From positions 1 to 23,446 of the IMG/VR virus record IMGVR_UViG_3300031539_000323: a DNA stretch of 23,446 bases; one strand, given 5' to 3'. The notes beneath the pieces were generated by a model. The model worked only from the letters and a program-made list of their open reading frames with translations. It searched no databases and was not told the origin of the DNA. The number at the start of each line of letters is the position of its first letter. Positions within the stretch are counted from its first letter, which is position 1. This document shows, in pieces, positions 2,535 through 16,159 of this stretch. Position numbers and translations under genes: made by a program. The DNA comes from a virus.

Positions 2535-4262
2535 CTATTTTTCTTTATTAATCCAAACAAATTTTAAATTACCAGAATCATAAACTCTATAATATTTTCT
2601 TTCTGTCATTATTTCATACTCAGTCATATTCGAATTAAAACCTTCTTTAATTAATATGTCTTTCCTAAACTTATATCTATGATACCTAATCAATTCATTT
2701 TTCTTAAAATACCAATAATTTGGTTTAGTTTTTTTTATTAATTCAAAATTTAATTTATCATATAAATTCCCTTTTGAATATCGTCTATCTGCAAAACTAA
2801 TTATTTCTTTGGGGTTATATGTTTTAATGAAAAAAGTAAATAATTTACTTGCACCACCAACTATTTGAGTATTTAGTTTATTACAAAATCTATACATTTC
2901 ATACTCATCTTGTAAATTCTTTTTATTACCTAAAGCAATTCTTTTCTTTCCAAAAGTCATTAATGAAACTAATTCATCATTATAAAATAACCCAATATTA
3001 ATTTTTGAGTTGACCTTTCCCTGCATATGATTATTTTCGAGAAAATTATTAACTAATTGATTGTTATTTAATAATTGTACATTACATTTACGTGCAAATA
3101 TTCTTTCATTAAATATTCCTAATTTAGATTTTATAATCGATTTAACAATATTCTTTTTAAAAAACCATTCATCTTCAAAAATATGTAATAGTTGAATGTT
3201 ATTTTGTTCGCAAACCTCTGTTTTATTTAAATGATATTTACTATCCCGATATTTATCTGAATGCCAATATAATCCATTAAATTCAATTCCCAAGCTATTA
3301 TCTAACATCAATATATCAATCTCTTTCCCACTTAGAAATTTCCTATCATTCTTAATATAATTAATATTTAGTGTCTGAATAAAATCACTAATTTCATTTT
3401 CCTTTATTGTTATTAAATCGGAAATTGGGTTACATTTTGTACAAATATTTTCAATTTTATATCGCAATCTATTGAATAGATTTTGTTTATTAATTTTAAA
3501 TGTTTGATGTATAGGACATAAATTTCTTATAGTCACATTATCATTTGGTGATGTGACTATATCTTTTTCAGATAAATTTAATTTTATTGAATATTTTTTT
3601 TGGTAATTTAACGTAATTGTTTGATTTCTTTTTTTTATAATATTAGAATTTTTATTAGGATTATCAACACCATATTTTTCCATGAATGTTTTTTTCCTTT
3701 TATTAACAACCATTTCAGAATGACTATTATGTTCAACACCATACCTTTTTAAATTAGTGTTTTTTATCTTATCCTTAATTTCTTCCGATTGGAAAGGATT
3801 ATTAACACCATACCTTTTTAAATTAGTGTTTTTTATCTTATCCTTAATTTCTTCCGATTGAAATATATTATCAACACCATACTTATTTTTTATTGTTTGA
3901 TTTCTTTTTTTTATAATATCAGAATTTTTATTAGGATTATCAAACCCAAATTTTTTTAAATTAGTTTCCCTGACCTTATTTTTTACCACCTCATCTTTTT
4001 GTATACATTGTTTCGAACAATATTTTGAAAATCCTTTTGAGAAACTAATTAATTTTGTTTTTTTATTACAGACATCACAGATAGGATTATTAATCTTATG
4101 ATATAAAATATAAACCTTTTCCTTAAATGAATAATCGTTAATTATTTCACTATGTATTTTATTATATAACAAAGGATGGTTTTTCTTAAAAAAATCATCC
4201 CTAAATCTATTGGATATAAATTTATTATCAATAAACAATATTTCATGTAATTCTTTTTTCAT
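2535..4262 (-). CDS. Free-standing homing endonuclease, Hef/Vsr-like nuclease with zinc fingers
   Basis: A 575-residue selfish DNA endonuclease. Residues 62-86 form a Cys4 zinc finger (C62, C65, C82, C86). Residues 100-205 hold about five 23-24 residue repeats (KYGVDNP, KRYGVNNPFQSEE, KRYGVEHNS), typical of DNA-reading segments in phage endonucleases. A second zinc site is likely at C249, H252, C274 and C277. Residues 313-372 (EIDIL, LGIEFNGLYWHSD, QLLHIFEDEW) form a PD-(D/E)XK/Vsr-like nuclease core with likely catalytic D316 and E327. The C-terminal part (RKC, NHMQG, VGGASKLF, ADRRYSKGN, YRVYDSGN) is the GNAT-like module often fused in these enzymes. It interrupts the run of fibre and glycosyltransferase genes, as mobile homing genes do. 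Its stop-codon region resembles that of the upstream gene. Confidence 0.85.
   Translation of the reverse strand: MKKELHEILFIDNKFISNRFRDDFFKKNHPLLYNKIHSEIINDYSFKEKVYILYHKINNPICDVCNKKTKLISFSKGFSKYCSKQCIQKDEVVKNKVRETNLKKFGFDNPNKNSDIIKKRNQTIKNKYGVDNIFQSEEIKDKIKNTNLKRYGVNNPFQSEEIKDKIKNTNLKRYGVEHNSHSEMVVNKRKKTFMEKYGVDNPNKNSNIIKKRNQTITLNYQKKYSIKLNLSEKDIVTSPNDNVTIRNLCPIHQTFKINKQNLFNRLRYKIENICTKCNPISDLITIKENEISDFIQTLNINYIKNDRKFLSGKEIDILMLDNSLGIEFNGLYWHSDKYRDSKYHLNKTEVCEQNNIQLLHIFEDEWFFKKNIVKSIIKSKLGIFNERIFARKCNVQLLNNNQLVNNFLENNHMQGKVNSKINIGLFYNDELVSLMTFGKKRIALGNKKNLQDEYEMYRFCNKLNTQIVGGASKLFTFFIKTYNPKEIISFADRRYSKGNLYDKLNFELIKKTKPNYWYFKKNELIRYHRYKFRKDILIKEGFNSNMTEYEIMTERKYYRVYDSGNLKFVWINKEK
3735..3860 (-). 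repeat. Exact 57-bp tandem-type direct repeat inside the endonuclease gene
   Basis: The segments 3735-3791 and 3804-3860 are identical over 57 bases and offset by 69 bases, which is exactly 23 codons. They encode two successive copies of the KRYGV/SEEIKDKIKNTN repeat. Identity at the DNA level shows a very recent duplication or ongoing slippage, compared with the more diverged outer copies. Confidence 0.9.
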
Positions 4263-12517: not shown

Positions 12518-13621
12518 TTAACTAAGACTAAATCCTTGTTGTCTACGAGCTTTTTTCCTTAACTCATTCAAATCACGAAGTGCATTAGGGTCAAATCTTT
12601 CCCTCTTAACAACACTTACAAGATAATTAAACTCGTTTTCAGTAATAACCTGACCAACATAACCTTCTGTTTTAAGAACATAAGATTTTGGTACACGTGC
12701 AGTTGAAGAAGCATGACCTTCAGTATCAAGGGTAGCATCGAATGTTAATTCAAGAAGTTCTTGAATTTTTTCATACACATTTGCTGTCATATCTGATTTT
12801 GTTTTCTTCAATGCTTTTTCAAGCAAATCAATAACATTATCTTGATGATTCTTCTTCATTTCAATATAAGTTTCAGTGAATTCTTGTCTTGTAGACTTAT
12901 CTTTCAATTCACTTATAATTGCCAATGCACCGTAGCAGTCACGAATCAATATATCCCAAATCTGTTCAGCATAAGTGAATGATGGAAATTTATCAATTGC
13001 AACAATTTCACCATCAACCAATATAATTGTACCAATCAAGTTTTTTGGACGTTCGAAGTGAGCAATAAATTGTTCTAGTTTCTTATCATACTTTTCAAAG
13101 TAAACATTAAGATAACTTCCAGCACCTGATTGAGTATCTCTACCTAATTTATCAATAGCTGGATAAATATTACCATGTCCACTTATTTGTCCAACAGCAT
13201 CGAATAACATTTCACGCATAGTTACTGGAATCATACGGAATTCAGATGTGCCACGGAAATGACCACCTTGTGAACCCTGCACACAACCAGCATCATGATA
13301 AGTAGTACTTGCCCTTGAAGGAATATAACCTGCCTTTACCATACCATGATTTTGAGCACTTTGCTTTGTCATTACAGCCATCTGAGCAGGAAGAATAACT
13401 TCCTTGTTCTCGTTATTAGTAAAATTAATTTCACCATAAGAACGGTTACCTGCTGATAAAGAAGTTAAAGGATTCGCAAAACGAGTATCCAATGAGAATT
13501 CTTTGTCAGTTGTAAGACATACTACTTGCATGTTTAATATACTTTGTACTACAATATTACCATCACTATTCTTGACAGGACGGCAACCTTTTAGTAATTC
13601 TGTAAAATCTCTTGTATTCAT
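12518..13621 (-). CDS. ARPP-1-like domain protein
   Basis: A 367-residue cytosolic protein. The order of motifs fits the ARPP-1 family (named for association with ADP-ribosylglycohydrolase and rhodanese-phosphatase genes). NKEVILPAQMAVMTKQSAQN (about residues 72-91) is in the place of the family's P-V-L-L-x-x-G-E-x-L-x-G-A-K-Q-N motif. DAGCVQGSQGGHF (about 111-123) is in the place of P-V-S-C-V-E-Q-G-R-W. GTIILVDGEIVAIDKF (about 198-213) followed by YAEQIWDILIRDCYGAL matches the family's G-x-x-x-x-x-N-G-x-V-x-G-x-D-x-F and L-W-x-x-L-x-x-S-Y-x-x-x-A segments. The C-terminal 110 residues are helical and basic. Family members are linked by context to ADP-ribose and conflict systems; the biochemical role is unproven. 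It follows the TROVE-vWA gene by 10 bases, so they probably act together. Confidence 0.65.
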   Translation of the reverse strand: MNTRDFTELLKGCRPVKNSDGNIVVQSILNMQVVCLTTDKEFSLDTRFANPLTSLSAGNRSYGEINFTNNENKEVILPAQMAVMTKQSAQNHGMVKAGYIPSRASTTYHDAGCVQGSQGGHFRGTSEFRMIPVTMREMLFDAVGQISGHGNIYPAIDKLGRDTQSGAGSYLNVYFEKYDKKLEQFIAHFERPKNLIGTIILVDGEIVAIDKFPSFTYAEQIWDILIRDCYGALAIISELKDKSTRQEFTETYIEMKKNHQDNVIDLLEKALKKTKSDMTANVYEKIQELLELTFDATLDTEGHASSTARVPKSYVLKTEGYVGQVITENEFNYLVSVVKRERFDPNALRDLNELRKKARRQQGFSLS

Positions 13622-13631
13622 AATATTCGTT

Positions 13632-15266
13632 TTAAACGTTTACACTTATTTTCTTTGTTCTTTTAACAGGTGCAGCTTCTAAAGCAATAACCTGATTTTC
13701 CAACCAACACTTTGTGTCGATTTCCAACAATCTAGCAGTGATTTGTGGCTGCAATGCAACTGGATTATTAATTGCCATTGTAATAACATCAGCACCTAAT
13801 TTACGTACATTTGAACCAACTTCTGCACCAGTAATTGGTGATATCTGGAATATTGGAACTTGACTTCCAGTTTCCTGACGATATATTGAAATCACTTCAT
13901 TTGTCAAACCATCATAAGAATTTTCATAACCATCAGTTAAAATGAAAATTGCATTATAAGGATTTGCAGTATTCTCTGATTTAAGTAATTCAATAAATGA
14001 ACTTGCAATATCAGTTGTTTCATCTTTTGTTTTCACAAAAGTTGCAGAATCTGCTGACTCTCCAAGAACCTTTGCAGTGAAATCAGCAATCGCTCTTGGT
14101 GTATTCTTTGACTCGTTTTTATGACCAGTCATTGAATTACTATCATCGATAATAACACCAATATTCTTGTAGTGGAAACCATCGATTTTCTTCTTCTTAG
14201 CCAGAACATTAATCGCTATAATCAAATCTTCTGTCCAACCAGATTCATATCCAGTCTTATATAATGCAAGGAAGTCACTTACTTTCTGAACATCAACGCT
14301 CTTCTGAACACCTAGTTTCGCAGTACTTTTTGTCTGACGAACTTGCTGGTTTACTGAAGTCACCTTCACGTTCTTACGAATCATTCCCTTTGTTGCTTCT
14401 TTCTGAAGGTCAGTGCTCCACATACTATGGTATTGAGGATGTCTTACATTTGAAATCATACCAAGTAAAACTTCTTCAGGAACATTACTAACATCAGTAA
14501 TGTCAACCTTTGCCTTTTGGTATTCACTCAAAATTGGAAACTCGGTAGCATCGAACATAATATTATCTTCTTTTTTAAATAAGAAAAGTAATAATTTAAA
14601 CGCTTTACCATTATCCCCATTATAGTACTTTAAAATACTATCATTAAGAATATTCATTTCCTTTTCAGTTCCTATGATTGTTGAATCATAACTAACTTGC
14701 TTCTCAGCAATTGAAAGCAAGATTGATGTTTTCTTAATACCATATACATGCTTCAATACTTCAGCAATCTTATTACGGTACTTCAAAGTATAGAACTCAA
14801 GATTATTTTGACCCCAAATAAAGCCAAGTATAATCTTCCTCATTCTTTCGTTGTTTACTCTTGCATTTTTCAAATCAACAAATAAACGTAAAACATAAGG
14901 AAAACCGTTTTCTTCATTCAAGTTTTTTAATGCAATAAGAATTGCTTTATCACTCAAACCATTATCATACCAATCGATTGGATTCACAATATTACATGCT
15001 CCACCTCTTGAGGTATTTTTGAACTCATTCAATAACACCTCAGATACGAATCGACCAGTTGCTCCTTTTTGAGTTGCAATGATTAACGGAAGCTCTTTTG
15101 AAAGTCTATACTGACCCATAATGGCAGTACGAATTGCTTTCATTTGCTCGTCTTTGTTGTGGTAATAAGTAGCTGAACTACGACTTCCACTTGCAATCGT
15201 CAAACCGTCAATTAAAATTTGCTTAACTGTACTCAACATCTTCTGTGTTAAAACTAAATTTTCCAT
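13632..15266 (-). CDS. Ro60/TROVE-like RNA-binding protein with von Willebrand A domain
   Basis: A 544-residue protein. Residues 1-365 are almost entirely helical, with basic patches, as in the HEAT-repeat ring of Ro60 (TROVE module). A helical segment around VPEEVLLGMISNVRHPQYH (262-280) precedes the second domain. Residues 367-515 are a von Willebrand A domain with an intact metal site: DDSNS (D374, S376, S378), a downstream Thr near 417-418 and ILTDG (D445). Ro60 proteins bind misfolded RNAs and Y RNAs and partner RNA-processing enzymes; Ro homologues occur in bacteria and in some phages. Here the gene begins 83 bases after the hairpin that ends a tRNA cluster and heads an operon with an ARPP-1-like gene. 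A weak -7 box (TATAATTG, 15308-15315) precedes it. The vWA call is strong; TROVE is moderate, and MoxR-associated vWA proteins are the alternative. Confidence 0.7.
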   Translation of the reverse strand: MENLVLTQKMLSTVKQILIDGLTIASGSRSSATYYHNKDEQMKAIRTAIMGQYRLSKELPLIIATQKGATGRFVSEVLLNEFKNTSRGGACNIVNPIDWYDNGLSDKAILIALKNLNEENGFPYVLRLFVDLKNARVNNERMRKIILGFIWGQNNLEFYTLKYRNKIAEVLKHVYGIKKTSILLSIAEKQVSYDSTIIGTEKEMNILNDSILKYYNGDNGKAFKLLLFLFKKEDNIMFDATEFPILSEYQKAKVDITDVSNVPEEVLLGMISNVRHPQYHSMWSTDLQKEATKGMIRKNVKVTSVNQQVRQTKSTAKLGVQKSVDVQKVSDFLALYKTGYESGWTEDLIIAINVLAKKKKIDGFHYKNIGVIIDDSNSMTGHKNESKNTPRAIADFTAKVLGESADSATFVKTKDETTDIASSFIELLKSENTANPYNAIFILTDGYENSYDGLTNEVISIYRQETGSQVPIFQISPITGAEVGSNVRKLGADVITMAINNPVALQPQITARLLEIDTKCWLENQVIALEAAPVKRTKKISVNV

Positions 15267-15399: not shown

Positions 15400-15570
15400 T
15401 TATAAAAACCATTATTAACCATCAAATGTTAGGTGGTATACCCCGTTTTTTACTAAAAACACTGCACCAACAACCAAAAAAAATCAAGCGGGATATAAAA
15501 TACTTACGACATTTTTTTTACCGCTTAATAAATTCGGGAATAATTTCAAAGTATTTGTTGTTTATTAAAA
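15400..15570 (-). ncRNA. Structured 3' flank of the permuted tRNA-Gln
   Basis: No coding frame worth calling. On the minus strand there is a hairpin AAGCGG/CCGCTT (15526-15521 with 15491-15486) with an A-rich internal part and an inner AAAAT/ATTTT stem, resembling P4-P5 of group I introns. Next comes GTTTTT/AAAAAC inside an outer GTTGGTG/CACC-AAC stem (about 15472-15415). The stretch 15466-15477 can instead pair with 15799-15811 on the other side of the tRNA. It may be half of a split intron or a processing scaffold (hypothesis). Confidence 0.4.
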
Positions 15571-15662
15571 CATTTATCAAAAAAATGCGCCTTTACCACT
15601 TGGCTATATCCCCAATTATCTTTATTATTGGTGGGGATAGAAGGATTCGAACCTCCGAATTA
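15571..15662 (-). tRNA. Circularly permuted tRNA-Gln(UUG): 3' half precedes 5' half
   Basis: The transcribed order is the 3' half (15662-15629), a 15-base A/T spacer (15628-15614), then the 5' half (15613-15571). The 3' half has the end of the variable loop, the T arm GGAGG-TTCGAAT-CCTTC, acceptor strand TATCCCC, A73 and encoded CCA. The 5' half has GGGGATA, TA, D arm GCC-AAGTGGTAAA-GGC, and a full anticodon arm CATTT-TTTTGAT-AAATG with anticodon TTG. The halves pair perfectly in the acceptor (7 of 7), and both look Gln-like. The 5' half is exactly 43 bases, so the break lies in the variable loop. No matching 5' half lies upstream and no 3' half downstream. A functional tRNA would need ends joined at the variable loop and the spacer removed, for example by RNase P and 3' processing. 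Confidence 0.75.
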
Positions 15663-15679
15663 CTGTAAACACTTTCAGT
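15661..15679 (-). repeat. 19-bp repeat at the 3'-half boundary, copy 2
   Basis: ACTGAAAGTGTTTACAGTA on the minus strand ends exactly where the tRNA-Gln 3' half begins. It matches 15882-15900 at 17 of 19 positions, and similarity continues weakly into the tRNA. Confidence 0.75.
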
Positions 15680-15876
15680 TTTCCCTTATACATTAAACCT
15701 TTCTAAAGTATGTGGAACAGCGAGGCACTACTGAGAAATAATTTATCGCTTTTGCAGCCTTCAGTCCGTTTTAGAATTCAGAACCGTGTCTCCATTACTT
15801 GGTTCTTAGGTTATATTTTAAAGAACTTTAGAAGAAATTTGTTAGTTTTGTTTTTGTAAGTGTCTGATTTACCGTC
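15680..15876 (-). ncRNA. Structured 5' flank of the permuted tRNA-Gln
   Basis: About 200 non-coding bases between the two 19-bp repeats. On the minus strand AGAACC/GGTTCT forms a stem around 15781-15806. Further on, ACTGA, GGC and AGCGA pair in order with TCAGT, GCC and TCGCT (15763-15719), a nested or pseudoknotted arrangement. GGAGACACGG (15793-15784) loosely recalls the R element of group I introns, but I cannot find a convincing S partner. The segment 15799-15811 pairs with the opposite flank. It is probably a folded RNA; the class is unresolved. Confidence 0.4.
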
Positions 15877-15881
15877 AAATT

Positions 15882-15900
15882 TACTGTAAAAACTATCAGT
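15882..15900 (-). repeat. 19-bp repeat near the tRNA-Met end, copy 1
   Basis: ACTGATAGTTTTTACAGTA on the minus strand starts 12 bases after the 3' end of the CAU-anticodon tRNA. It may be the remnant of an earlier copy of the boundary sequence next to the tRNA-Gln 3' half. Confidence 0.7.
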
Positions 15901-15911
15901 TCTTCTCTTTG

Positions 15912-15984
15912 TAGCGGGGGTAGGACTCGAACCTACGACCTTAACGTTATGAGCGTCACGAGCTACCAACTGCTCTACCCCGCA
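15912..15984 (-). tRNA. tRNA with CAU anticodon (Met, or Ile after lysidine modification)
   Basis: Complete cloverleaf: acceptor TGCGGGG/CCCCGCT (six pairs plus a U-U at 1:72), TA, D arm GAGC-AGTTGGTA-GCTC, G, anticodon arm TGACG-CTCATAA-CGTTA, variable AGGTC, T arm GTAGG-TTCGAGT-CCTAC, A73. No CCA is encoded. The anticodon stem lacks the three G-C pairs of initiator tRNA, so elongator Met or Ile2 fits better. The 1:72 mismatch is unusual for an elongator. Confidence 0.9.
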
Positions 15985-16021
15985 ATATATTTTTAAAAGG
16001 ACAATTCGTTTGTTATATTTG

Positions 16022-16095
16022 TTTGTAATATAGGATTTGAACCTATGACATTCTGCTTACGAAGCGGATGCTCTAACCAACTGAGCTATTTACTG
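16022..16095 (-). tRNA. tRNA-Thr(CGU)-like gene with a degenerate acceptor stem
   Basis: D arm GCTC-AGTTGGTTA-GAGC, anticodon arm TCCGC-TTCGTAA-GCAGA (one C-A mismatch) with anticodon CGT, variable ATGTC, and T arm ATAGG-TTCAAAT-CCTAT are all clear. The acceptor strands CAGTAAA and ATTACAA pair only at 3:70 to 6:67, with mismatches at 1:72, 2:71 and 7:66. No CCA is encoded. It may be a decaying tRNA, a tRNA-like RNA, or one that is edited. It is the first gene of the RNA cluster, 65 bases after the promoter. Confidence 0.75.
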
Positions 16096-16159
16096 AAATA
16101 ACAACCAGTTTCCTTTTATATTTTAAATCATTTTAAAGAACATTGTCTAAAAGACTCTG

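Follow-up and report, generated by a model that had tools for sequence, protein, structure and literature searches.

A putative phage Y-type RNA combining a predicted Ro60-binding stem with a circularly permuted tRNA mimic

In the present study, an RNA of about 150 nt, named P RNA, is described on the minus strand of a viral DNA stretch of 23,446 nt, which is referred to as the window. P RNA is most likely a tRNA imitation within a phage RNA-protein particle and not a glutamine tRNA. According to the best explanation, for which we estimate a probability of roughly three in four, it is a phage Y-type RNA in which a predicted Ro60-binding stem is combined with a circularly permuted tRNA mimic. 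Judged from the aligned relatives, the structure is well supported, and there is strong support for a tRNA-like fold that is circularly permuted and broken in the variable loop. Transcription of the P RNA, binding by Ro60 and the function of the head are what we infer.

Layout of the P RNA in the window

An earlier note had assigned 15571-15662 to a circularly permuted tRNA-Gln(UUG) gene. The order of parts that it gave, with the T arm, the acceptor 3′ strand and CCA first and with the acceptor 5′ strand, the D arm and the UUG arm 15 bases further on, was confirmed on the minus strand. The arms are correctly contained in that interval, but the outer flanks are paired as well and the feature reaches from 15536 to 15685. 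The following parts were distinguished:

15536-15685, minus strand: the entire P RNA, Y-like and with a permuted tRNA head, 46 distinct homologues aligned and 34 pairs counted
15681-15685, minus strand: 5′ strand of the terminal helix, GGGAA, with the partner TTCCC at 15536-15540
15667-15675, minus strand: 5′ strand of the inner stem, AAAGTGTTT, with the partner AAATACTTT at 15548-15556 and a conserved G.U
15660-15665, minus strand: conserved CAGTAA beside the stem, also present in sister RNAs
15640-15656, minus strand: T arm GGAGG TTCGAAT CCTTC with the loop TTCGAAT; T54, T55, C56, A58, C61 and G53 in 46/46 sequences
15633-15639, minus strand: acceptor 3′ strand TATCCCC, 7/7 pairs with double changes
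15614-15632, minus strand: acceptor loop, 19 nt here, beginning with ACCA (15632-15629) followed by 15 spacer bases
15607-15613, minus strand: acceptor 5′ strand GGGGATA, followed by TA before the D arm
15589-15604, minus strand: D arm; A14, GG and the U8 ahead of the arm present in 46/46
15571-15587, minus strand: anticodon-like arm CATTT-TTTTGAT-AAATG with the 7-nt loop TTTTGAT (UUG here), hypervariable in relatives

As RNA, the two-part end stem consists of GGGAA/UUCCC and then AAAGUGUUU/AAAUACUUU. In the alignment of relatives, a discrete RNA is delimited by GGGAA and TTCCC, outside which conservation falls sharply. The match of the window to model R1 reaches 142.6 bits (E 1.1e-27).

P RNA sits in a tRNA cluster. 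In the unrearranged window, only a tRNA-Met at 15911-15984 was seen by ARAGORN. When the sequence was rearranged as 5′ half plus 3′ half, as the earlier note had proposed, the same program called tRNA-Gln(ttg) in 61 of the 64 junctions tried. A contiguous tRNA reading of the 5′ half at 15535-15613, which at 33.9 bits lies above the Rfam cut-off, was rejected because its acceptor is paired in 67% of cells, the same value as in shuffled sequences.

Homologues, covariation and fold

A search of IMG/VR by the proteins encoded next to the P RNA gave 140 loci. Counting the window, 46 distinct sequences have the permuted arrangement in the corresponding position. Six helices with together 34 pairs were counted on their alignment, namely the terminal helix, the inner stem, the T stem, the acceptor (7 bp), the D stem and the anticodon-like stem. 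Standard pairs occupy 98.7% of the cells, compared to 38-56% in slid versions and 81% in shuffles, and double changes on both sides were observed in 24 of the 34 pairs. None of the 500 shuffles reached any of the five measures; recurrence of the permuted arrangement with compensatory changes is far beyond chance.

All seven acceptor pairs and all five pairs of the anticodon-like stem covary. The terminal helix is paired in 99.6% of cells, with a double change in two pairs, and the inner stem in 97.3%, with double changes in five of nine pairs; in sequence, this outer flank stem varies less than most of the tRNA part. Essentially the same fold was obtained from the alignment with RNAalifold and from the window sequence alone as its MFE structure, the z-score of the single-sequence fold being modest (−1.75). 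The earlier claim that the joined halves form normal arms and a 7-bp acceptor, with a break in the variable loop, is thereby borne out by covariation in 46 homologues.

Conservation of the tRNA elbow and variation of the decoding end

The elbow positions U8, G10, A14, the D-loop GG, G53, T54, T55, C56, A58 and C61 are kept in all 46 sequences. The anticodon-like loop keeps its length of 7 nt and takes 26 different forms, its triplet has 15 forms, and U33 is kept in 30 of 46 only. Behind the acceptor, 29 of 46 sequences have NCCA (ACCA or GCCA). The acceptor loop measures 5-23 nt in relatives, with 5 nt in nine of 46; in ten it has 5-6 nt without NCCA, so that the acceptor is there a simple hairpin. 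As loops and triplets vary, U33 is limited to 30 sequences and ten lack NCCA, the alignment supports neither a decoding tRNA nor the designation as a tRNA-Gln(UUG) gene.

The downstream Ro60-like and ARPP-1 genes

Two genes follow the P RNA on the same strand:

13632-15266, minus strand: divergent Ro60/Rsr (TROVE + vWA) protein of 544 aa, matched by the fold of its AlphaFold model
12518-13621, minus strand: ARPP-1 domain protein (PF20208; Pfam E 2.6e-13, 50.4 bits, cut-off 27)

The first of them lies 269 nt downstream of the P RNA in the window. Searches of Pfam, NCBIfam and PDB by phmmer and profile returned no TROVE or Ro60 sequence match for its product, and Pfam TROVE (PF05731) matched none of the 27 members of the protein family. 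The AlphaFold model (pLDDT 74) is predicted to have the helical-repeat ring and vWA fold of Ro60/Rsr proteins. Its best ten PDB matches are all Ro60/Rsr/TROVE structures (Z 12.0-14.5, residues 16-533), including 9kop (TROVE, Z 14.5), 9l5y (Ro60 of Thermus phage phiLo), 1yvp and 2nvo (Rsr), with 12-14% identity and an rmsd of 5.7-6.7 Å, whereas vWA-only proteins reached Z 10.6 at most against the same model. The assignment of the product as Ro60-like, drawn from the predicted fold only, is supported. The ARPP-1 gene is the next gene after it, and the two also adjoin in the distant phage LR756500; according to Burroughs and Aravind, ARPP-1 is reportedly linked to RNA repair systems.

Occurrence and linkage to the Ro60-like gene

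In 50 of 53 sources, model R1 had a single match (121-158 bits), and in large phage contigs there is one match per contig, near the Ro60-like gene. When 2.9 million viral contigs were scanned with a DNA pattern, blind to the protein, 47 stretches were obtained; the Ro60-like gene is present in 35 of these, and 11 of the 12 others stop within about 1 kb downstream. The RNA and the gene are separated by a few hundred nt in some loci and by as much as about 1.6 kb in others (e.g. locus L189). Since the P-class phages are relatives of each other, their synteny is weak evidence by itself.

One contig (G010) kept the RNA and lost both the Ro60-like and the ARPP-1 gene; the outer T-stem pair of its RNA copy is broken, as would be expected if the RNA decays once its partner is lost, although this is a single case. 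At locus L061 the Ro60-like gene region is present and an R1 match absent. The large contigs G019 and G020, found by their helicase and without the Ro60-like gene, also lack the RNA. A scan of genome contigs confirmed no relatives in bacterial genomes. Among named phages, LR756500, a phage genome of 462 kb, alone has homologues of both proteins, the Ro60-like one only 26% identical. Neither TROVE nor YrlA was matched above the cut-off in the Listeria phages A511 and P100, and R1 matches there are weak.

Sister RNAs and neighbouring elements

RNAs with similar stems sit among the tRNA genes, two of them in the window:

15831-15905, minus strand: class B sister RNA, stem GAAGAACTG..AGTTTTTACAGTAA / AAAACTAACAAATTTCTTC with a non-tRNA head, 36 aligned homologues
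15999-16113, minus strand: class A sister RNA, similar stem on the acceptor end of a tRNA-like body in normal order, 24 homologues

Both are secondary R1 matches, class B at 15830-15906 (E 6.1e-5) and class A at 15997-16115; the class A body is the 'tRNA' at 16024-16093 (Rfam tRNA, 48.2 bits). Since the class A stem is invariant in sequence among homologues, the evidence for its pairing is conservation together with the flanks in LR756500, which differ but are complementary. In class C, which was found in relatives, the stem is inserted in the D loop of a tRNA-like cloverleaf; across 25 sequences, 98.2% of cells are paired and 17 pairs have double changes. LR756500 carries class A-like and class C-like RNAs just upstream of its Ro60-like gene and a further class C-like RNA near 86 kb.

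Several further elements were observed around these RNAs. Between P RNA and the Ro60-like gene, four relatives have a further class B-like RNA (L007:1759-1848, L008:3256-3346, L018:3263-3349 and L054:2278-2370), and none was seen at this position in the window. Between class B and P RNA, an RNA-like segment at 15692-15812 on the minus strand reads AACCTAAGAACC...GGTTCT...CACATA...GGTT; its counterpart in relatives is clearly similar, with differing complementary arms CCTAAGAATC...GATTCTGAA...TTGAATGAACATGAAAAGGCTGGCAAACCGATAAATTAC...AATGTTCAATGG, and Rfam gave no identification of the segment. The motif TTCTTTAAAAT occurs in the window at 15815-15825 and 16130-16140 (minus strand). In the loci of relatives (L004-L063) it was counted, allowing TTCTTTAACAT, 36 times forward versus three times in reverse, often 4-9 nt ahead of class C RNAs, and it is possibly a phage promoter. 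Small hairpin-like segments, for example CTCGGTAAAGCCTCTTACGAAAGTAATGTAACCGAG and TTCCCCGTTGTCCCTGTGGCAACACAAACTTCGGGG, recur a few hundred bases upstream of P RNA (L011, L022, L047 and others). The tRNA-Met(CAT) at 15911-15984 (minus strand) has a U1.U72 mismatch, with which it may be a phage-encoded initiator-type tRNA. Outside the cluster, a homing endonuclease-like protein is encoded at 2535-4262 on the minus strand (PHROG 3339, E 4.8e-135).

Proposed function and alternative explanations

In the proposed mechanism, the ends of the P RNA pair into the two-part stem, which most likely binds the Ro60-like protein encoded downstream. At the other end stands a complete permuted tRNA-shaped head, attached via what would be the variable loop of a tRNA. 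By analogy with YrlA, this head probably recruits tRNA-binding factors or imitates tRNA towards them, candidate partners being a PNPase-type nuclease, tRNA-modifying enzymes and anticodon nucleases. The Ro60 particle would then act in phage RNA decay, repair or tRNA defence. ROT/TROVE proteins have been noted in jumbo phages; in cells, these proteins act together with a tRNA-like partner (PMC7824862).

If the locus were a genuine permuted tRNA-Gln gene, the acceptor spacer would be excised from its transcript and the outer ends ligated via a circle, which would give a UUG tRNA. The halves encoded in reversed order do fold into a cloverleaf, which after rearrangement is called tRNA-Gln by ARAGORN, and ACCA or GCCA after the acceptor in 29 of 46 relatives would suit such a gene. 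However, a conserved anticodon with U33 fit for decoding is absent from the 46 homologues, given 15 triplet forms, U33 in 30 and a 5-nt acceptor loop in nine, and a covarying, conserved outer stem would be odd for a leader and trailer that are discarded, so that this origin is extremely unlikely. The joining route of its own that the phage had been thought to need is not required either: with its two flanks paired in a conserved stem, the RNA can work as transcribed, like YrlA. As a fallback, the earlier note had offered a tandem tRNA duplicate with one half deleted in each copy. The location in a tRNA cluster would be in keeping with such decayed remnants, but they are excluded because the structure is conserved and covarying, its six helices being kept with compensatory changes in 46 distinct sequences, and their probability is practically nil.

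The position upstream of the Ro60-like gene on the same strand, at 269 nt in the window, would also suit a 5′ leader element that acts in cis on the Ro60-like mRNA, for instance in autoregulation by Ro60 or T-box-like sensing, with no free RNA. This is made unlikely by the variable distance to the gene, by the sharp limits of conservation at GGGAA and TTCCC, and by the occurrence of similar stems in sister RNAs that lie among tRNA genes and, in LR756500, elsewhere in the genome as well. The constant length and highly variable sequence of the anticodon-like loop (26 loops in 46 sequences) would agree with a Ro60-independent decoy, a tRNA-shaped bait for host anticodon nucleases, and a decoy role has already been suggested for YrlA (PMC7790460). 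It is nevertheless very unlikely, as it would leave unexplained both the linkage to the Ro60-like gene and the conserved outer stem, which is common to class B with its head of non-tRNA type.

For the phage Y-type RNA as the preferred reading, a wider scheme is possible but doubtful, in which one protein-binding stem would have been grafted on a tRNA body at three points within the Ro60 particle system. These points would be the acceptor end (class A), the D loop (class C) and the variable loop (P RNA), class B being without a tRNA head. With this set, tRNA surfaces would be offered in differing orientations, whether to lure or sense anticodon nucleases or, with ARPP-1, to guide the repair of tRNAs.

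The results indicate that tRNA mimicry by Y RNAs occurs in more than one topology, here as a complete cloverleaf including the anticodon arm. They tie a clearly structured phage non-coding RNA to a Ro60-like protein that is missed by sequence searches, and they give a testable model for Ro60/Y RNA particles during infection. Moreover, they are a warning that tRNA finders may mistake such heads for tRNA genes or pseudogenes.

Comparison with known systems

The permuted two-piece tmRNA (RF04321) shares with P RNA the order of T arm, acceptor 3′ strand, CCA, spacer and acceptor 5′ strand; P RNA differs from it in having D and anticodon arms and no tag-coding piece. As a candidate this family was rejected, with 21.6 bits against a cut-off of 47 and a match to model positions 36-95 of 213 only. 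In permuted tRNA genes of algae and archaea, the T/acceptor 3′ half is likewise encoded before the 5′ half. P RNA, in contrast, has an unconserved anticodon, needs no joining and has outer flanks that form a conserved stem.

On the protein side, the Rsr of Deinococcus radiodurans and vertebrate Ro60 (2NVO, 1YVP) and the phiLo Ro60 (9L5Y) have the same helical ring and vWA fold as the model of the phage protein, which at 12-14% identity to these Ro60s was missed by Pfam TROVE and by a PDB profile search. For Listeria phage CKA15, an Rsr-like protein and abundant putative Y RNAs transcribed within 2 kb upstream are described in the available text of PMC12282133, where mycobacteriophage Y RNAs (Chen et al. 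2014) are also cited. The CKA15 RNAs are only proposed Y RNAs and are given there without a structure, whereas the structure of P RNA was derived from covariation.

The closest likeness in design is to YrlA (RF02553; Salmonella structure 6CU1). YrlA holds Rsr with its end-paired stem, and its tRNA-like domain with D, T and acceptor-like parts can hold PNPase and carries modifications made by tRNA enzymes (PMC8394870); YrlA has been described as a circular permutation of tRNA (PMC11472068). Against the Rfam YrlA model, P RNA scored 17.1 bits with a gathering cut-off of 69, and no relative exceeded the cut-off. As weak YrlA matches also occur in ordinary control genomes, the match was taken as a lead only, and P RNA was kept outside RF02553 because it failed the cut-off. 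Like YrlA, P RNA has a basal stem formed by its ends and the permuted order of T arm, loop-closed acceptor hairpin, UA and D arm. YrlA lies beside the Ro60/Rsr gene, and such a gene, assigned by predicted fold, adjoins the P RNA in 35 of 47 stretches. According to the consensus structure of RF02553, the closing helix of YrlA follows directly after the D arm, so that its permutation opens in the anticodon stem. P RNA, unlike YrlA, has a 7-bp acceptor with loops of 5-23 nt and a complete anticodon-like arm whose loop has 7 nt, and it opens in the variable loop.
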